Shown piece by piece: positions 33,226-37,658 of a DNA stretch of 37,658 nucleotides. The notes under the pieces are model-generated. The model ran no database searches and was not told the origin of the DNA. It saw only the letters and a list, made by a program, of their open reading frames with translations. A program made the position numbers and the translations under genes. The stretch's first letter is position 1, and every line of letters starts with the position of its first letter. The stretch covers positions 1-37,658 of the forward strand of contig NZ_KB899309.1 in NCBI RefSeq assembly GCF_000378145.1, written 5' to 3'. The stretch is from Saccharibacillus kuerlensis DSM 22868 (GTDB taxonomy: Bacteria; Bacillota; Bacilli; Paenibacillales; Paenibacillaceae).

Positions 33226-33284
33226 AACGAGAGCCGCTAAGCAAGGCGCGGTTACCGGGCGGGAATGGACATAAGCCCACACAC

Positions 33285-33300: not shown

Positions 33301-35700
33301 TTGTTCGGATTCACTTACGGAGACGGAGTCACGCTCGTACACTTCCAAGCGCAATCTCCCAGATTATACACAGCCGGCGACAGCCTGAACTGCCAATACA
33401 TAAGAGCTTACTTCAAGCAGAGGGGGGGCAATGCTGCCCAGTATATCGAAGCTCATCTTGCAACCCTGCAGGATTGCGCTGAAGAGATCGAATCTTTTGG
33501 AAGTGCGGTTGTTGCGGTTCAGGTTGAGGCCGAAACGTACTCCCTCTGCCGCAGTCTCTCCCGAACATTGAAGCAGCTGGACAGTGAACTCCGAATCGTT
33601 TGGTTTGGCGAATGGGTCGGTAAACTTCACGGCAGCGATCCCCAAGAAGTTGATGCGGACGCTTTTATCCTCGCCGAGCCGGAAGCGACGATCTGGATGC
33701 TTTCCGAATCGGACAAGGAGTGCTGGGAAAACAGCGGATGCCTTCAGCTTGCGGGAAGTATTCGCGAAGAAGCTGTACGGATCAGTGGGATCGATAAGGA
33801 CGCTGTCGAATCTGACACCCTTACACTGGATCTGCTGGCTTCTCCCGATGAGAGAAAAGGAGCAGCTGTCGAATTCAAAGTACGCTGGGCTGATCGTCAA
33901 GGAGAGACAGTGCGCAACGGAGGTATTCGGCGCCACTCGATGCAGCGCTTTGCCGAAGAAGCGGCAAAGGCAGCTAAGACGGCGGCCGGAACGACGCTGA
34001 GCATAGAAGGTTTCGAATATGCAAATGCACCTGAAGAACTGGCTCGGGGATTCGAGATCATCGCAGCGCATGCACCTACAGTCAAGCTGGAAGTTGGCTT
34101 GAGAATTGACCAACTGCACGCAATGGCGCCGGGTCAACTTGAAGCAGCCGGCATATCCGCTCTCAAGCTTACCATCTGCAGCCCAGATTCTCTTAAAGAC
34201 GCTGCAATTAAGGGTCTGCTGACACAGTGGAGAGCAGGCACTGCCGGAGCAAGAATTCGATTGTGGCTTGACGGCGAGATGGCCGGACAGGGAATGGAAA
34301 CGGCCCGGCACTTGAAGAGTTGGCTAAGCGCAGGACTGATACAGCCTGGAGATGTACGTATCCGGGTAAACGGACTTCAGCAGTTGAATCTGGAAAGCGA
34401 ACTGGCTGATCTCTTGGCCAGCGCAGGCAGCGGCAGTGATCCAGCTCTGCTGAACGGGTACCTGGCTTACAAGACCGGGCAGTATCCGCCGCAGGCACTG
34501 GGAAGCGGAGTGAAGCATATCGGGCTGTCCGATAGGCATATCCCGGATCTTGCCGAATTGGAGCCAAACCAACTGATGGGAATCAACAGCGCCTTTATCT
34601 TAAGTCAAAACTCAGTTTCCTCATCGGAAAAAGAAGATAAATATTTGGATGCCGAAGGAGTCGTCAAGCGGGATCGCACGGGATACAATCGCCTTGCGAA
34701 GGAGCTGGAGAGCAAACATCAGTATGTGCCTCATATTCAGGCGGAAAGTCTTACAGCCGATACGCAGACTCGGCATCTGGAGATGAGTGCTTACGATTTC
34801 GGTCCACCCATTGAAATGGAACTGATGAATTATCGGGAAGCAGCCGGCAGGGAGATCGAAGATCAATCCGGCGTACCCGGTCTGGAGATTCTGGAGGTTG
34901 GGGATGCAGATAATCTACAAGCTTTCCTCGAGGATGTACAGGCTTTCGAGCAGGTGGGCAAATTCCGTCATGGTTATCAGGTGCGGGGTTATGTAACCGA
35001 CAGCTGCCGTTGGTCGGCTGCCGGACAGTGTCCGATCAAGCAGCTTCCCCGACTATCGATCGAAGAGGAAGGGAAGATTGCCGGCTGCGGAGGCTGTGCC
35101 GCAATCGGAAGAGTAGGCGACTCCTACGACAGCCTGCAGCGAGAAGCCTCGGCGGCTTCTACCCGGGAACAGCTGCTGCGCGGATGCGACACCTGCGAAA
35201 TTCGCGATACCTGCTCGAAATGTACATTCCTTCCGGAATATATGACGCGCAGTCAGTACTGCGAGATCCGCAAACGCCATGCCATGCTGCACCGTTACAT
35301 GCAGGTGGCCCAAGTGTTCAAGGGGCTTCGCCAATACACGGTTCTGTTCCGGGATACGGATATCCGCGAAGTCGGCGTCTCACTGCGAACCTGCACGCAT
35401 CTGCTGCCTGCCGCTTATCAGGCTGAAGGCCAATCTTGGGTGCCTGACCATCTGTTTGTACTCTTCGTCGGCGGTCAGCCGCTGCTGTATCAAGCTGCCA
35501 GCGGCAAACTGCTTAAGCTCAGTCCGCTAATGGCACTGGTATTGGAAGCGGGAATCAAGGGACTGTCCGAAGTTTCTCTCAAACGGGCGATCGCGGAAGT
35601 ATTCAAGACTGATGAAACACAGGCGGAGACAGCAGCCGAACAGGTCAGCCGCAAGCTGGACGAAATGGGGATCATATCTGCTGCACGCCGTGCTTCGTAG
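33301..35700 (+). CDS. Degenerate radical SAM/SPASM-like protein with C-terminal PqqD-like RRE domain
   Basis: A 799-residue protein, first in the RiPP operon, starting at TTG 33301. Residues about 20-140 look like a B12-binding-type Rossmann segment (CQYIRAYFKQ, DADAFILAEPEATIW). Residues about 200-400 follow the pattern of a radical SAM barrel but without any CxxxCxxC, so no SAM-cleaving cluster can be bound in the usual way. Residues 569-654 are a SPASM-like segment with nine Cys: 569, 577, 596, 599, 629, 632, 638, 641 and 654 (motifs GCGGCAAIG, GCDTCEIRDTCSKC, YC). The last ~85 residues (QPLLYQAASGKLLKLSPL, then TAAEQVSRKLDEMGII) resemble a PqqD winged helix, the RiPP recognition element that binds leader peptides. 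I infer it recruits the precursors to other enzymes or carries an auxiliary iron-sulfur role. The aminotransferase starts 27 bases later. Confidence 0.8.
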   Translation: MFGFTYGDGVTLVHFQAQSPRLYTAGDSLNCQYIRAYFKQRGGNAAQYIEAHLATLQDCAEEIESFGSAVVAVQVEAETYSLCRSLSRTLKQLDSELRIVWFGEWVGKLHGSDPQEVDADAFILAEPEATIWMLSESDKECWENSGCLQLAGSIREEAVRISGIDKDAVESDTLTLDLLASPDERKGAAVEFKVRWADRQGETVRNGGIRRHSMQRFAEEAAKAAKTAAGTTLSIEGFEYANAPEELARGFEIIAAHAPTVKLEVGLRIDQLHAMAPGQLEAAGISALKLTICSPDSLKDAAIKGLLTQWRAGTAGARIRLWLDGEMAGQGMETARHLKSWLSAGLIQPGDVRIRVNGLQQLNLESELADLLASAGSGSDPALLNGYLAYKTGQYPPQALGSGVKHIGLSDRHIPDLAELEPNQLMGINSAFILSQNSVSSSEKEDKYLDAEGVVKRDRTGYNRLAKELESKHQYVPHIQAESLTADTQTRHLEMSAYDFGPPIEMELMNYREAAGREIEDQSGVPGLEILEVGDADNLQAFLEDVQAFEQVGKFRHGYQVRGYVTDSCRWSAAGQCPIKQLPRLSIEEEGKIAGCGGCAAIGRVGDSYDSLQREASAASTREQLLRGCDTCEIRDTCSKCTFLPEYMTRSQYCEIRKRHAMLHRYMQVAQVFKGLRQYTVLFRDTDIREVGVSLRTCTHLLPAAYQAEGQSWVPDHLFVLFVGGQPLLYQAASGKLLKLSPLMALVLEAGIKGLSEVSLKRAIAEVFKTDETQAETAAEQVSRKLDEMGIISAARRAS

Positions 35701-35727
35701 CAGCGTATCACGAAAGGAGCAATCGCC

Positions 35728-37038
35728 ATGTCTACTGTGCAAAAAGCGGTATACCCGCTGATTCACCCACTGAAAAACGTTCAGCTCGGCGAGTCTTTTA
35801 CTTCGATGTCGAACGGATCGGGAATCTATGTTCAAGATGTTAACGGAAAACCTTATATCGACGGAATCAGCGGCTTGTGGAACGTATCACTGGGCTACGG
35901 GCATCCTGGTATTCGGCAGGCAATTGTGGATCAATTGGATCGGATTCCATTCGTGAATCTGGTCGATCAGACCAATCCGACTACGGTAAAGTTCGCCGAG
36001 GAACTGCTGTCGCTGACACCGGAGCGTTTGTCCCGAGTGATCTATACCTGCACGGGCTCGGAATCCGCGGAATTGGCGATTAAGCTGATGCGCAAATATC
36101 AGAGTCTTCGGGGACTTGAAGAGAAACAAAATATTGTCGCTCTCAGCATCTCTTATCACGGGACGTATTACGGGGCGATGAGCGCCAGCGGAATCGATCA
36201 GGAAATCTCGCAGGGTTACGGTCCCAAAGTTCCCGGATTCTTGTTCCACAATACGCCGCTCAGCGCATTGGGACGCGGCAGCGAAGAAGAGGAACTGCAG
36301 GCGATTGAAGAACTGTTCAACCGAGAAGGAGACCGGATTGCCGGTATGATTGTTGAGCCGATTATCGGCTCGGGCGGTACAATTCCACTGCCGGATGCTT
36401 TTCTAAGAAAAATTCGAGAGCTGTGCGATCGGCATGGCGCGCTGCTTGCATTCGACGAAGTAGCGACAGGCATGGGCCGAACAGGCCGAATGTTCGGCTT
36501 CGAACACAGCGGCGCTGTCCCTGATATTCTCGGCTTATCCAAAGGCATCAACAGCGGTTATCTGCCGCTTGGAGCTGTGCTGTTCAGCGAAAATATCTAT
36601 CGCGAGTTTGCGGCAGCCCATCTGCATATCGAGCACTTGTCGACGCAGAACGGGAATCCGATTGCCTGCGCTGCCGGCCTGGCAACCATCGAAGCCCTAA
36701 AAGAACCGGGTATGATGGAACATATTACCGATATGGGTGAGCTGCTGCGCGGACTGCTGAATGAAGCGCTGGCGGACTGTCCGGCCTTCAAGGAAACCCG
36801 AGGCAAAGGATTAATGACAGGCGTAGCGCTGCGCAGCGATCTGACAGGCGAAGACTGCATGGAAGCCGAGCGTCTCTCGGCACTCGTCGGCCGGCTGAAG
36901 CAGCGAGGACTGATTGTATATCCGTTCTACACGCCGGGTGTCACAACAGGATTCCACCTGTATCCTCCATTCATCATTAATGCGCAGGAAGTGGCGAAGA
37001 TCGTTGGAATCATCAAAAAAACACTGGGAGGCAGGTGA
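35728..37038 (+). CDS. Class III PLP aminotransferase, daptide-type candidate
   Basis: A 436-residue fold-type I enzyme of the omega-aminotransferase class. The phosphate cup is seen in TCTGSESAELAIKL, Asp243 (pairs with the pyridine N) in AFDEVATGMGRTG, and the Schiff-base Lys272 in GLSKGINSGYLPLG. HLSTQNGNPIACAAG and a C-terminal GVTTGFHLYPPF complete the active-site fold. Amines or a peptide ketone are the usual kind of substrate. Because the peptides downstream end in Thr, I propose it transaminates the methyl ketone formed after oxidative decarboxylation of that Thr, as in daptide biosynthesis. AAAGGAGC lies about 8 bases before the ATG, and it follows the RRE protein by 27 bases. Confidence 0.88.
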   Translation: MSTVQKAVYPLIHPLKNVQLGESFTSMSNGSGIYVQDVNGKPYIDGISGLWNVSLGYGHPGIRQAIVDQLDRIPFVNLVDQTNPTTVKFAEELLSLTPERLSRVIYTCTGSESAELAIKLMRKYQSLRGLEEKQNIVALSISYHGTYYGAMSASGIDQEISQGYGPKVPGFLFHNTPLSALGRGSEEEELQAIEELFNREGDRIAGMIVEPIIGSGGTIPLPDAFLRKIRELCDRHGALLAFDEVATGMGRTGRMFGFEHSGAVPDILGLSKGINSGYLPLGAVLFSENIYREFAAAHLHIEHLSTQNGNPIACAAGLATIEALKEPGMMEHITDMGELLRGLLNEALADCPAFKETRGKGLMTGVALRSDLTGEDCMEAERLSALVGRLKQRGLIVYPFYTPGVTTGFHLYPPFIINAQEVAKIVGIIKKTLGGR

Positions 37039-37043
37039 AGAGG

Positions 37044-37145
37044 ATGCAGCGTGAATATCTGTTCGATCCGACCAAAGAAACGTCGGTTTTGGACGGTAGT
37101 GAGTTTCCGGGCGACGAGCCTTTTGAATCAGCTGTATTATTCTAA
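37044..37145 (+). CDS. Small acidic ORF between aminotransferase and precursors
   Basis: A 33-residue frame starts 5 bases after the aminotransferase stop, with GGAGG about 12 bases and GAAGAGG directly upstream of its ATG. It reads MQREYLFDPTKETSV, is rich in Asp/Glu and ends in AVLF, not Thr, so it is not a member of the precursor family. It could be a small accessory protein or an accidental frame. I do not recognise it. Confidence 0.4.
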   Translation: MQREYLFDPTKETSVLDGSEFPGDEPFESAVLF

Positions 37146-37204
37146 ACCGATCACGGATATTCCGGATTTATATAAGAGTTAATTCTGTAAAGGAGGTGAG
37201 AAGA

Positions 37205-37327
37205 ATGGAACAGGTATCGAAAGTCGAAGTCGAAGAGCTGGAGACCGTAATTGCCCCAGCCGGCGGAATGTTCATAGGCGGCCCGCTTATCGGCGTCGTG
37301 GTCGGCGGTATGATCTCTCTGACCTGA
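37205..37327 (+). CDS. RiPP precursor peptide 1, daptide-like (C-terminal Thr)
   Basis: A 40-residue peptide with AGGAGGTGAG ending 4 bases before the ATG. The leader is acidic (VEVEELETVIAP) and the core (from about residue 19) is Gly/Val/Ile-rich without Cys: GGMFIGGPLIG, closing in GGMISLT. The final residue is Thr, as required for daptide-type C-terminal chemistry. The Leu-Glu-x-Val-x-Ala-Pro motif before the core is shared with the next two peptides and probably contains the recognition and cleavage region. Too short to be picked up by usual gene callers. Confidence 0.87.
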   Translation: MEQVSKVEVEELETVIAPAGGMFIGGPLIGVVVGGMISLT

Positions 37328-37387
37328 TTGCTGCCTAACCCTATTACAGATTAACCAACATTTATTCGAGGAAAGGAGGACACGAAA

Positions 37388-37525
37388 ATGAACGAACAAT
37401 ATGTACTGGATCTGGAACTGCTGGAGAATGTAGAAGCGCCGGGAAATTCGAGAGACTTCGTAGAAGGCGTAATTGCCGGAGTGGGCGTTGTAGCAGTTGG
37501 AGCAGGCCTGGTTGCCTTCACTTAA
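37388..37525 (+). CDS. RiPP precursor peptide 2, daptide-like (C-terminal Thr)
   Basis: A 45-residue peptide with AAAGGAGG 8 bases before the ATG. Its leader (LDLELLENVEAP) repeats the Leu-Glu-x-Val-x-Ala-Pro motif of peptide 1. The core starts with a polar segment (GNSRDFVEG) and continues Gly/Val/Ala-rich (VIAGVGVVAVGAG), ending LVAFT. It shares little with core 1 except hydrophobicity, small residues and the terminal Thr, which is the pattern of a leader-guided multi-product cluster. The core could form a membrane-active helix. An AT-rich 8-bp inverted repeat lies 30 bases after its stop. Confidence 0.87.
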   Translation: MNEQYVLDLELLENVEAPGNSRDFVEGVIAGVGVVAVGAGLVAFT

Positions 37526-37611
37526 TCCACAGTAGAAGAGCAGTAGCAGAAAACTGAATTTTTGAAAATTCAAAATTAAAAAACTAAACCCAATCAAAGG
37601 AGCGATTAACA

Positions 37612-37658
37612 ATGGAAAATATGCTGAATGTACAACTGGAAGAACTGGAAGAGGTAGC
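37612..37658 (+). CDS. RiPP precursor peptide 3, N-terminal part (cut by window edge)
   Basis: The frame opens with ATG and CAAAGGAGCGATTAACA upstream (AAAGGAG at 10 bases), reads MENMLNVQLEELEEVA and runs off the window. LEELEEVA matches the leader motif of peptides 1 and 2 up to the Ala preceding Pro. Whether it also ends in Thr cannot be seen. Confidence 0.75.
   Translation, partial: MENMLNVQLEELEEV

Follow-up and report, generated by a model that had tools for sequence, protein, structure and literature searches.

The stretch of DNA analysed here (the window, 37,658 nucleotides; Saccharibacillus kuerlensis DSM 22868, NZ_KB899309.1) is the entire contig C33, one of 56 contigs in a genome of 4.70 Mb, and its right end cuts through the array of precursor genes of a daptide cluster, encoding ribosomally synthesised and post-translationally modified peptides (RiPPs). 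A second contig of the same genome, C41, apparently continues the cluster. We propose, with rather more confidence than doubt, that this is a split daptide cluster in which a retired enzyme, DapB, serves as the adaptor and whose peptides would end in a C-terminal imidazoline.

The original prediction, made from the window, had called a daptide RiPP cluster on the basis of a class III aminotransferase, Thr-ending short tandem genes and a protein with a PqqD-like C-terminus and a SPASM-like Cys-rich segment. Its aminotransferase, together with the protease and methyltransferase of C41, scores above the NCBIfam daptide cut-offs (Table 1), and the methyltransferase, dehydrogenase, protease and exporter expected beyond the right end of the window have counterparts on C41 in DapM, a short-chain dehydrogenase/reductase (SDR), DapP and an ABC (ATP-binding cassette) ATPase. 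By its predicted activity, the SDR would serve as the NAD(P)-dependent oxidative decarboxylase of the daptide class.

C41 carries five precursors after its start, of which the first would be dapA3 in full if the contigs overlap, and the cluster holds at least seven, copies lost between the contigs being uncountable. The third precursor as read on C41 (...GGGLIAFT) has the expected Thr end. Core composition was examined in 53 distinct cores from open reading frames (ORFs) ending in Thr and carrying the AP motif, one spurious ORF of genome G721 having been removed by hand; a count of Thr ends in this set is circular because a Thr end was the selection criterion. The non-circular test took, from 12 clusters with that of S. 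kuerlensis included, the 82 small ORFs that lie between dapD and dapP and are preceded by a ribosome binding site; of these 76 end in Leu-Thr or Phe-Thr and the penultimate residue of the 76 Thr-ending ORFs is solely Leu or Phe. None of the 53 cores contains Cys; 38 have a further Ser or Thr apart from the terminal Thr, and the other 15 have nothing else to cyclise. The dapA1 precursor matched no NCBIfam model at an E value of 0.1. The dapD-dapP interval of some relatives also holds leaderless Pro-rich hydrophobic ORFs, 25-31 residues long: P. solani (L076) has three, interspersed among the precursors, and G719 and G721 (L079, L080) have a single one.

A trio encoding a ThiF-like F-protein, a YcaO protein and a SagB-like protein is present in all 12 complete clusters, and the YcaO protein of S. 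kuerlensis ends in PHPFP, matching the PxPxP C-terminus of imidazoline YcaO daptides. According to the part of PMC12338566 covered here, two daptide YcaOs act at the C-terminus by imidazoline chemistry. Because the trio is constant and the ends are Leu-Thr or Phe-Thr, we favour a C-terminal imidazoline, perhaps oxidised further, so that the acidic tail of the peptide probably becomes a nitrogen-containing ring, by analogy with those YcaOs. The dimethyl-diamine end that had first been envisaged would thus be replaced or accompanied by an imidazoline, given the YcaO and its partners. The SagB-like protein matches no Pfam family; its predicted structure matches the SagB azoline dehydrogenase fold, in a model of moderate quality (mean predicted local distance difference test, pLDDT, 67.6; 63 of 244 residues below 50). 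No motif of the R-R-S-x-R type, which we take to be the FMN phosphate motif of azoline oxidases, is visible in its alignment, and for these two reasons an imidazole end is considered only as the bolder reading. From the (Leu/Phe)-Thr ends and the conserved trio, the masses of peptides with an imidazoline or an imidazole end can be predicted exactly. With cleavage after the AP of the leader assumed, the calculated [M+H]+ values for the A3 core of S. kuerlensis are 2061.138 as free acid, 2044.195 as dimethyl-diamine, 2012.169 as dimethylimidazoline and 2010.153 as imidazole; for the A1 core they are, in the same order, 2046.113, 2029.170, 1997.144 and 1995.128.

An ordinary daptide with an N,N-dimethyl-propanediamine end, in which the trio makes azolines at core Ser and Thr as in linear azole peptides, is unlikely but has a real chance of being correct. 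The three genes resemble the classical azole-forming set and most cores offer an inner Ser or Thr; on the other hand, Cys is absent throughout, the 15 cores mentioned above would leave the trio without a substrate, and the invariably Leu or Phe penultimate residue and the C-terminal action of the two daptide YcaOs (PMC12338566, same part) favour chemistry at the end of the peptide.

Much of the interest of the cluster lies in DapB. Its C-terminus is weakly PqqD-like, or RiPP recognition element (RRE)-like, with an RRE fold predicted at about residues 712-797, and a SPASM-type Cys-rich segment lies at residues 569-654, as had been read from the window; the description of an unusual RRE carrier was right, and understated. 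Residues of about 5-383 are predicted to adopt the cobalamin radical S-adenosylmethionine (SAM) fold, a Rossmann domain and a partial barrel. The cluster-binding motif CxxxCxxC or a near variant (C-x2-4-C-x1-3-C) occurs in none of 16 DapB sequences, S. kuerlensis included (one being a 416-residue piece), nor is CxxxCxxC found in any of a further set of nine, some of which are the same proteins. In the hidden Markov model (HMM) alignment, a gap covers part of the CxxxCxxC loop. Nine Cys are kept in 14 or 15 of the 16 rows of the DapB alignment, seven Cys of the SPASM set are invariant in 14 of 14 rows, and the set fits C-x2-C-x5-C-x2/3-C, the SPASM cysteine pattern. DapB looks like a worn-out cobalamin radical SAM-SPASM protein reused as a peptide holder, as judged from its sequence and predicted structure. 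It differs from the cobalamin-dependent radical SAM enzymes CysS, TsrM, OxsB, TokK and MgmA in having no CxxxCxxC and in the SPASM-type cysteines and the RRE that come after this part.

The alternative in which DapB has stayed a working cobalamin radical SAM enzyme, with its cluster on other cysteines and adding a further modification, draws on the predicted fold, on the nine kept Cys and on dN/dS values of 0.12-0.25 in five pairs, which show dapB to be under purifying selection. We consider the chance of it slight, the motif being absent from both sets and the cluster loop partly gapped, while the RRE and the gene position fit an adaptor. If the adaptor reading were confirmed, it would show a catalytic RiPP enzyme turning into a scaffold, and it gives testable Fe-S and binding predictions; in this clade the origin of DapB would be visible as a cobalamin radical SAM-SPASM maturase that has lost its radical site and now serves a different enzyme as peptide-handling adaptor.

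Several observations weigh against our proposal. DapB scores 39.7 bits on NF041823 against a cut-off of 150, which none of 398 Bacilli genomes passes, and for this reason its MpaB-equivalent role is argued from the neighbouring genes and from the RRE. The predicted structure of DapB is poor where the SPASM cysteines lie (most residues of 565-663 have a pLDDT below 50), HMM-HMM comparison gives probabilities of no more than 47-56%, and the SPASM match, at P 1.1e-4, has a reversed control that is itself not clean, at P 0.0039. The SagB-like protein falls below its TIGR03605 cut-off, and azolines inside the core may be formed as well, since 38 of 53 cores hold an inner Ser or Thr. The exporter is predicted from its ATPase gene, and the C33-C41 join is one that we infer. 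As further controls, eight column shuffles of the SPASM comparison gave P of 0.17-0.54, and TIGR04085, the SPASM model, matched one of 15 DapB members (E 0.086). L154, one of the ten proteins in the HMM-HMM comparison, was unlike a B12 radical SAM protein in appearance; its removal changed P from 1.4e-4 to 1.9e-4. A PDB sequence search with the DapB profile gave no match at E ≤ 1.

Gene identities, the predicted fold of DapB and the absence of CxxxCxxC were computed here, and the pathway that follows is drawn from published daptide biochemistry. The DapA leader (..ELE/LLE..AP) would bind the RRE at the end of DapB, which, as a retired cobalamin-type radical SAM-SPASM protein performing no radical chemistry, would hold the peptide for the SDR (DapC). 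DapC would oxidise the C-terminal Thr, with loss of CO2 to give an aminoacetone end, which DapD would then transaminate. After a single methylation by DapM, the YcaO and its ThiF-like partner may close a ring between the secondary amine and the carbonyl of the Phe or Leu at the penultimate position, yielding a C-terminal dimethylimidazoline; a second methylation would instead give the dimethyl-diamine. The SagB-like protein may oxidise the ring or merely hold the complex together. The membrane protease DapP would cut after the leader, an ABC exporter would secrete the peptide, and production is probably coupled to cell density through the neighbouring comQXPA genes. A more speculative version, to which we give a small chance, is that the exapted DapB, its radical cluster lost, keeps two Fe-S clusters on its SPASM cysteines and offers the peptides to an SDR, that the trio forms an imidazoline from Thr and the Phe or Leu before it, which the SagB-like flavoprotein aromatises to a C-terminal dimethylimidazole, and that a ComX pheromone switches the cluster on.

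The daptide class, its Bacillota members, YcaO tailoring and comX beside another RiPP type are already known. In the part of PMC10036551 covered here, 180 Bacillota daptide clusters encoding a PF13561 oxidoreductase are reported, the legend of its Fig. 1 lists an azoline dehydrogenase (TIGR03605), and its discussion places radical SAM enzymes in some daptide clusters, of which some may resemble the DapB described here. A new class confined to Bacillota was considered and rejected on the strength of those published clusters; the Bacillota version of daptides first suggested is therefore a daptide, though not a new one. The literature searched, supplements being outside its coverage, yielded no account of DapB as a cobalamin radical SAM derivative, of comQXPA beside daptide genes or of a RiPP with a C-terminal dimethylimidazole.

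As far as the covered parts of PMC10036551 and PMC12338566 go, the cluster shares with mpa (Microbacterium paraoxydans), tfDap (Thermobifida fusca) and saDap (Streptomyces azureus) the Thr-ending precursors with an ELE..AP-type leader, an RRE protein, here a predicted one, a dehydrogenase, a class III aminotransferase, a methyltransferase, a protease and an ABC transporter, and with the latter two also a YcaO. It differs from all three in having an SDR and not a PF00465 dehydrogenase, a 799-residue DapB whose front part is radical-SAM-like (NF041823 models 331 positions), a separate ThiF-like partner, a SagB-like gene and an attached comQXPA, and in that every Thr-ending precursor found here ends in (Leu/Phe)-Thr. 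The known Bacillota daptides (Bacillus cereus B4082; hominicin) share its phylum, PF13561 oxidoreductase and multi-copy precursors, within the same limits of source. Unlike the azoline oxidases McbC, BmdC and ThcOx, the SagB-like protein has no Pfam match and a TIGR03605 score under the cut-off.

A DapB profile (A1) matched 17 of 394 family genomes. The full gene set is present in 12 (S. kuerlensis, G002, G006, G015, G678, G656, G635, G694, G721, G719, G043 and G695), four loci are reduced or broken (G619, G660, G664 and G037), and G017 has homologues of DapB, DapD and the SDR beside genes that look LanB-like by eye. A wider profile (A2) matched three of 398 class-sample genomes; a single-sequence scan of genome contigs gave 26 pattern stretches and no relative, the A2 alignment gave 10 loci from 32 stretches, the C-terminal DapB profile found one protein in a large protein set, and DapB had no match in the plasmid records searched. 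DapD matched eight plasmid records at E ≤ 1e-60, all below 60% identity. For the DapP model NF041824, 97 of 398 genomes had a match at E ≤ 0.001 and two of the 398 one above its cut-off; neither DapB nor DapD was seen alongside three of the weaker matches (L099-L101). In G178, which the A2 profile found, homologues of DapB, DapD and the SDR lie close together (L098, 8 kb read).

In Ornithinibacillus massiliensis (L095) and Paucisalibacillus globulus (L096), as in G017 (L020), the three homologues stand beside LanB-like genes (by eye), and in the first two a YcaO is also present. Daptide and thiopeptide-like clusters thus seem to share the DapB/DapD/SDR module. These loci would lend some colour to the S. 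kuerlensis cluster being a thiopeptide-like or linear azole cluster with a borrowed Thr-decarboxylation module and no daptide; since its cores are without Cys, and the daptide protease, the methyltransferase and one daptide precursor exceed their cut-offs, this is very improbable.

The first 199 bases of C41 are identical to window positions 37460-37658 at 197, and the array copies match one another at 90-92% (four pairs compared). That C33 and C41 are two separate clusters joined by a chance repeat is extremely improbable: the two mismatches and the repetitive array leave some room for it, but the end match exceeds that among copies, all five search matches within the genome lie on C33 or C41, and S. 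brassicae, S. sacchari and S. endophyticus, the Saccharibacillus species in which the nearest relatives of DapB occur, carry the dapB-to-comQ gene set in the same order on a single contig.

Table 1. Genes of the daptide cluster in the window (contig C33) and on contig C41.
Feature	Position	Strand	Remarks
dapB, 799-aa adaptor	33301..35700	+	TTG start after AAAGGAGG; ORF open upstream to ATG at 33265
dapD, class III pyridoxal phosphate aminotransferase	35728..37038	+	NF041821 daptide_amino 510.4 bits (cut-off 450); PF00202
Small conserved ORF, 33 aa, directly 3' of dapD	37044..37145	+	Similar in 4 Saccharibacillus clusters
dapA1 precursor, 40 aa	37205..37327	+	Core after ..VIAP; ends SLT
dapA2 precursor, 45 aa	37388..37525	+	Leader ..ELLENVEAP; ends AFT; NF041808 daptide_123 42 bits (cut-off 25)
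dapA3 precursor, cut by contig end	37612..37658	+	Complete C41 copy L006:153-278, ends AFT
DapP membrane (intramembrane) protease	C41, L006:1302-2438		NF041824 418.3 bits (cut-off 300)
SDR dehydrogenase (DapC)	C41, L006:2476-3339		PF13561
DapM methyltransferase	C41, L006:3410-4231		NF041820 219.8 bits (cut-off 175)
ThiF-like F-protein	C41, L006:4231-4818		44.1 bits (NCBIfam cut-off 36.9)
YcaO	C41, L006:4737-6158		300.2 bits (NCBIfam cut-off 219.25); PF02624
SagB-like	C41, L006:6155-6904		TIGR03605 25.2 bits, under cut-off 78.4
ComQ	C41, L006:7040-7984		Named by domains and gene order
ComX	C41, L006:8225-8404		Named by gene order and domains
ComP	C41, L006:8435-10765		Named by domains and gene order
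ComA	C41, L006:10762-11418		Named by domains and gene order
ABC ATPase	C41, L006:11739-12740		

All eight genes tested gave dN/dS below 0.3 in every computable pair, the SagB-like pair of S. kuerlensis and G006 not being computable; as ORFs were taken from the first start codon, the set contains false N-terminal extensions, above all in DapD of G006 and G015. The small ORF after dapD has the consensus MQR.Y.FDP.KET...PGDEP...VLF in the four Saccharibacillus clusters examined, and the compared pairs show a dN lower than dS.

Beside the cluster lie comQ-, comX-, comP- and comA-like genes in that order, for which no Com-specific model matched. ComQ adjoins 15 of 16 loci (G017 left out) and was not seen at G695; ComX was seen at 12 and all four genes at seven of the 16, in stretches of about 20 kb that often end inside the com genes. 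All 12 ComX-like peptides have a Trp within the last four residues. Since 85 of the 255 family genomes sampled have a ComQ, the gene by itself carries no weight as evidence and it is the adjacency that counts; from position, comQXPA is probably linked to daptide production, and it suggests a natural inducer. According to the part of PMC12715929 covered here, 22 genomes have comX in the vicinity of class II lanthipeptide clusters.

In G619 (L074), uninterrupted dapB and SagB-like ORFs stand directly before comQXPA and no other daptide gene was matched in the stretch, an arrangement that points to loss of the other genes in a recent deletion or else to the pair having a second use. A congener with no DapB match encodes a ComQ 65% identical to that of S. 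kuerlensis (G014:C6:179232-180149). The S. brassicae locus (L017) corresponds to a published antiSMASH region 6 (3,188,983-3,209,900; 'terpene', cerecidin 11%), which begins inside dapB and spans the rest of the cluster read; the 'terpene' label may come from ComQ.

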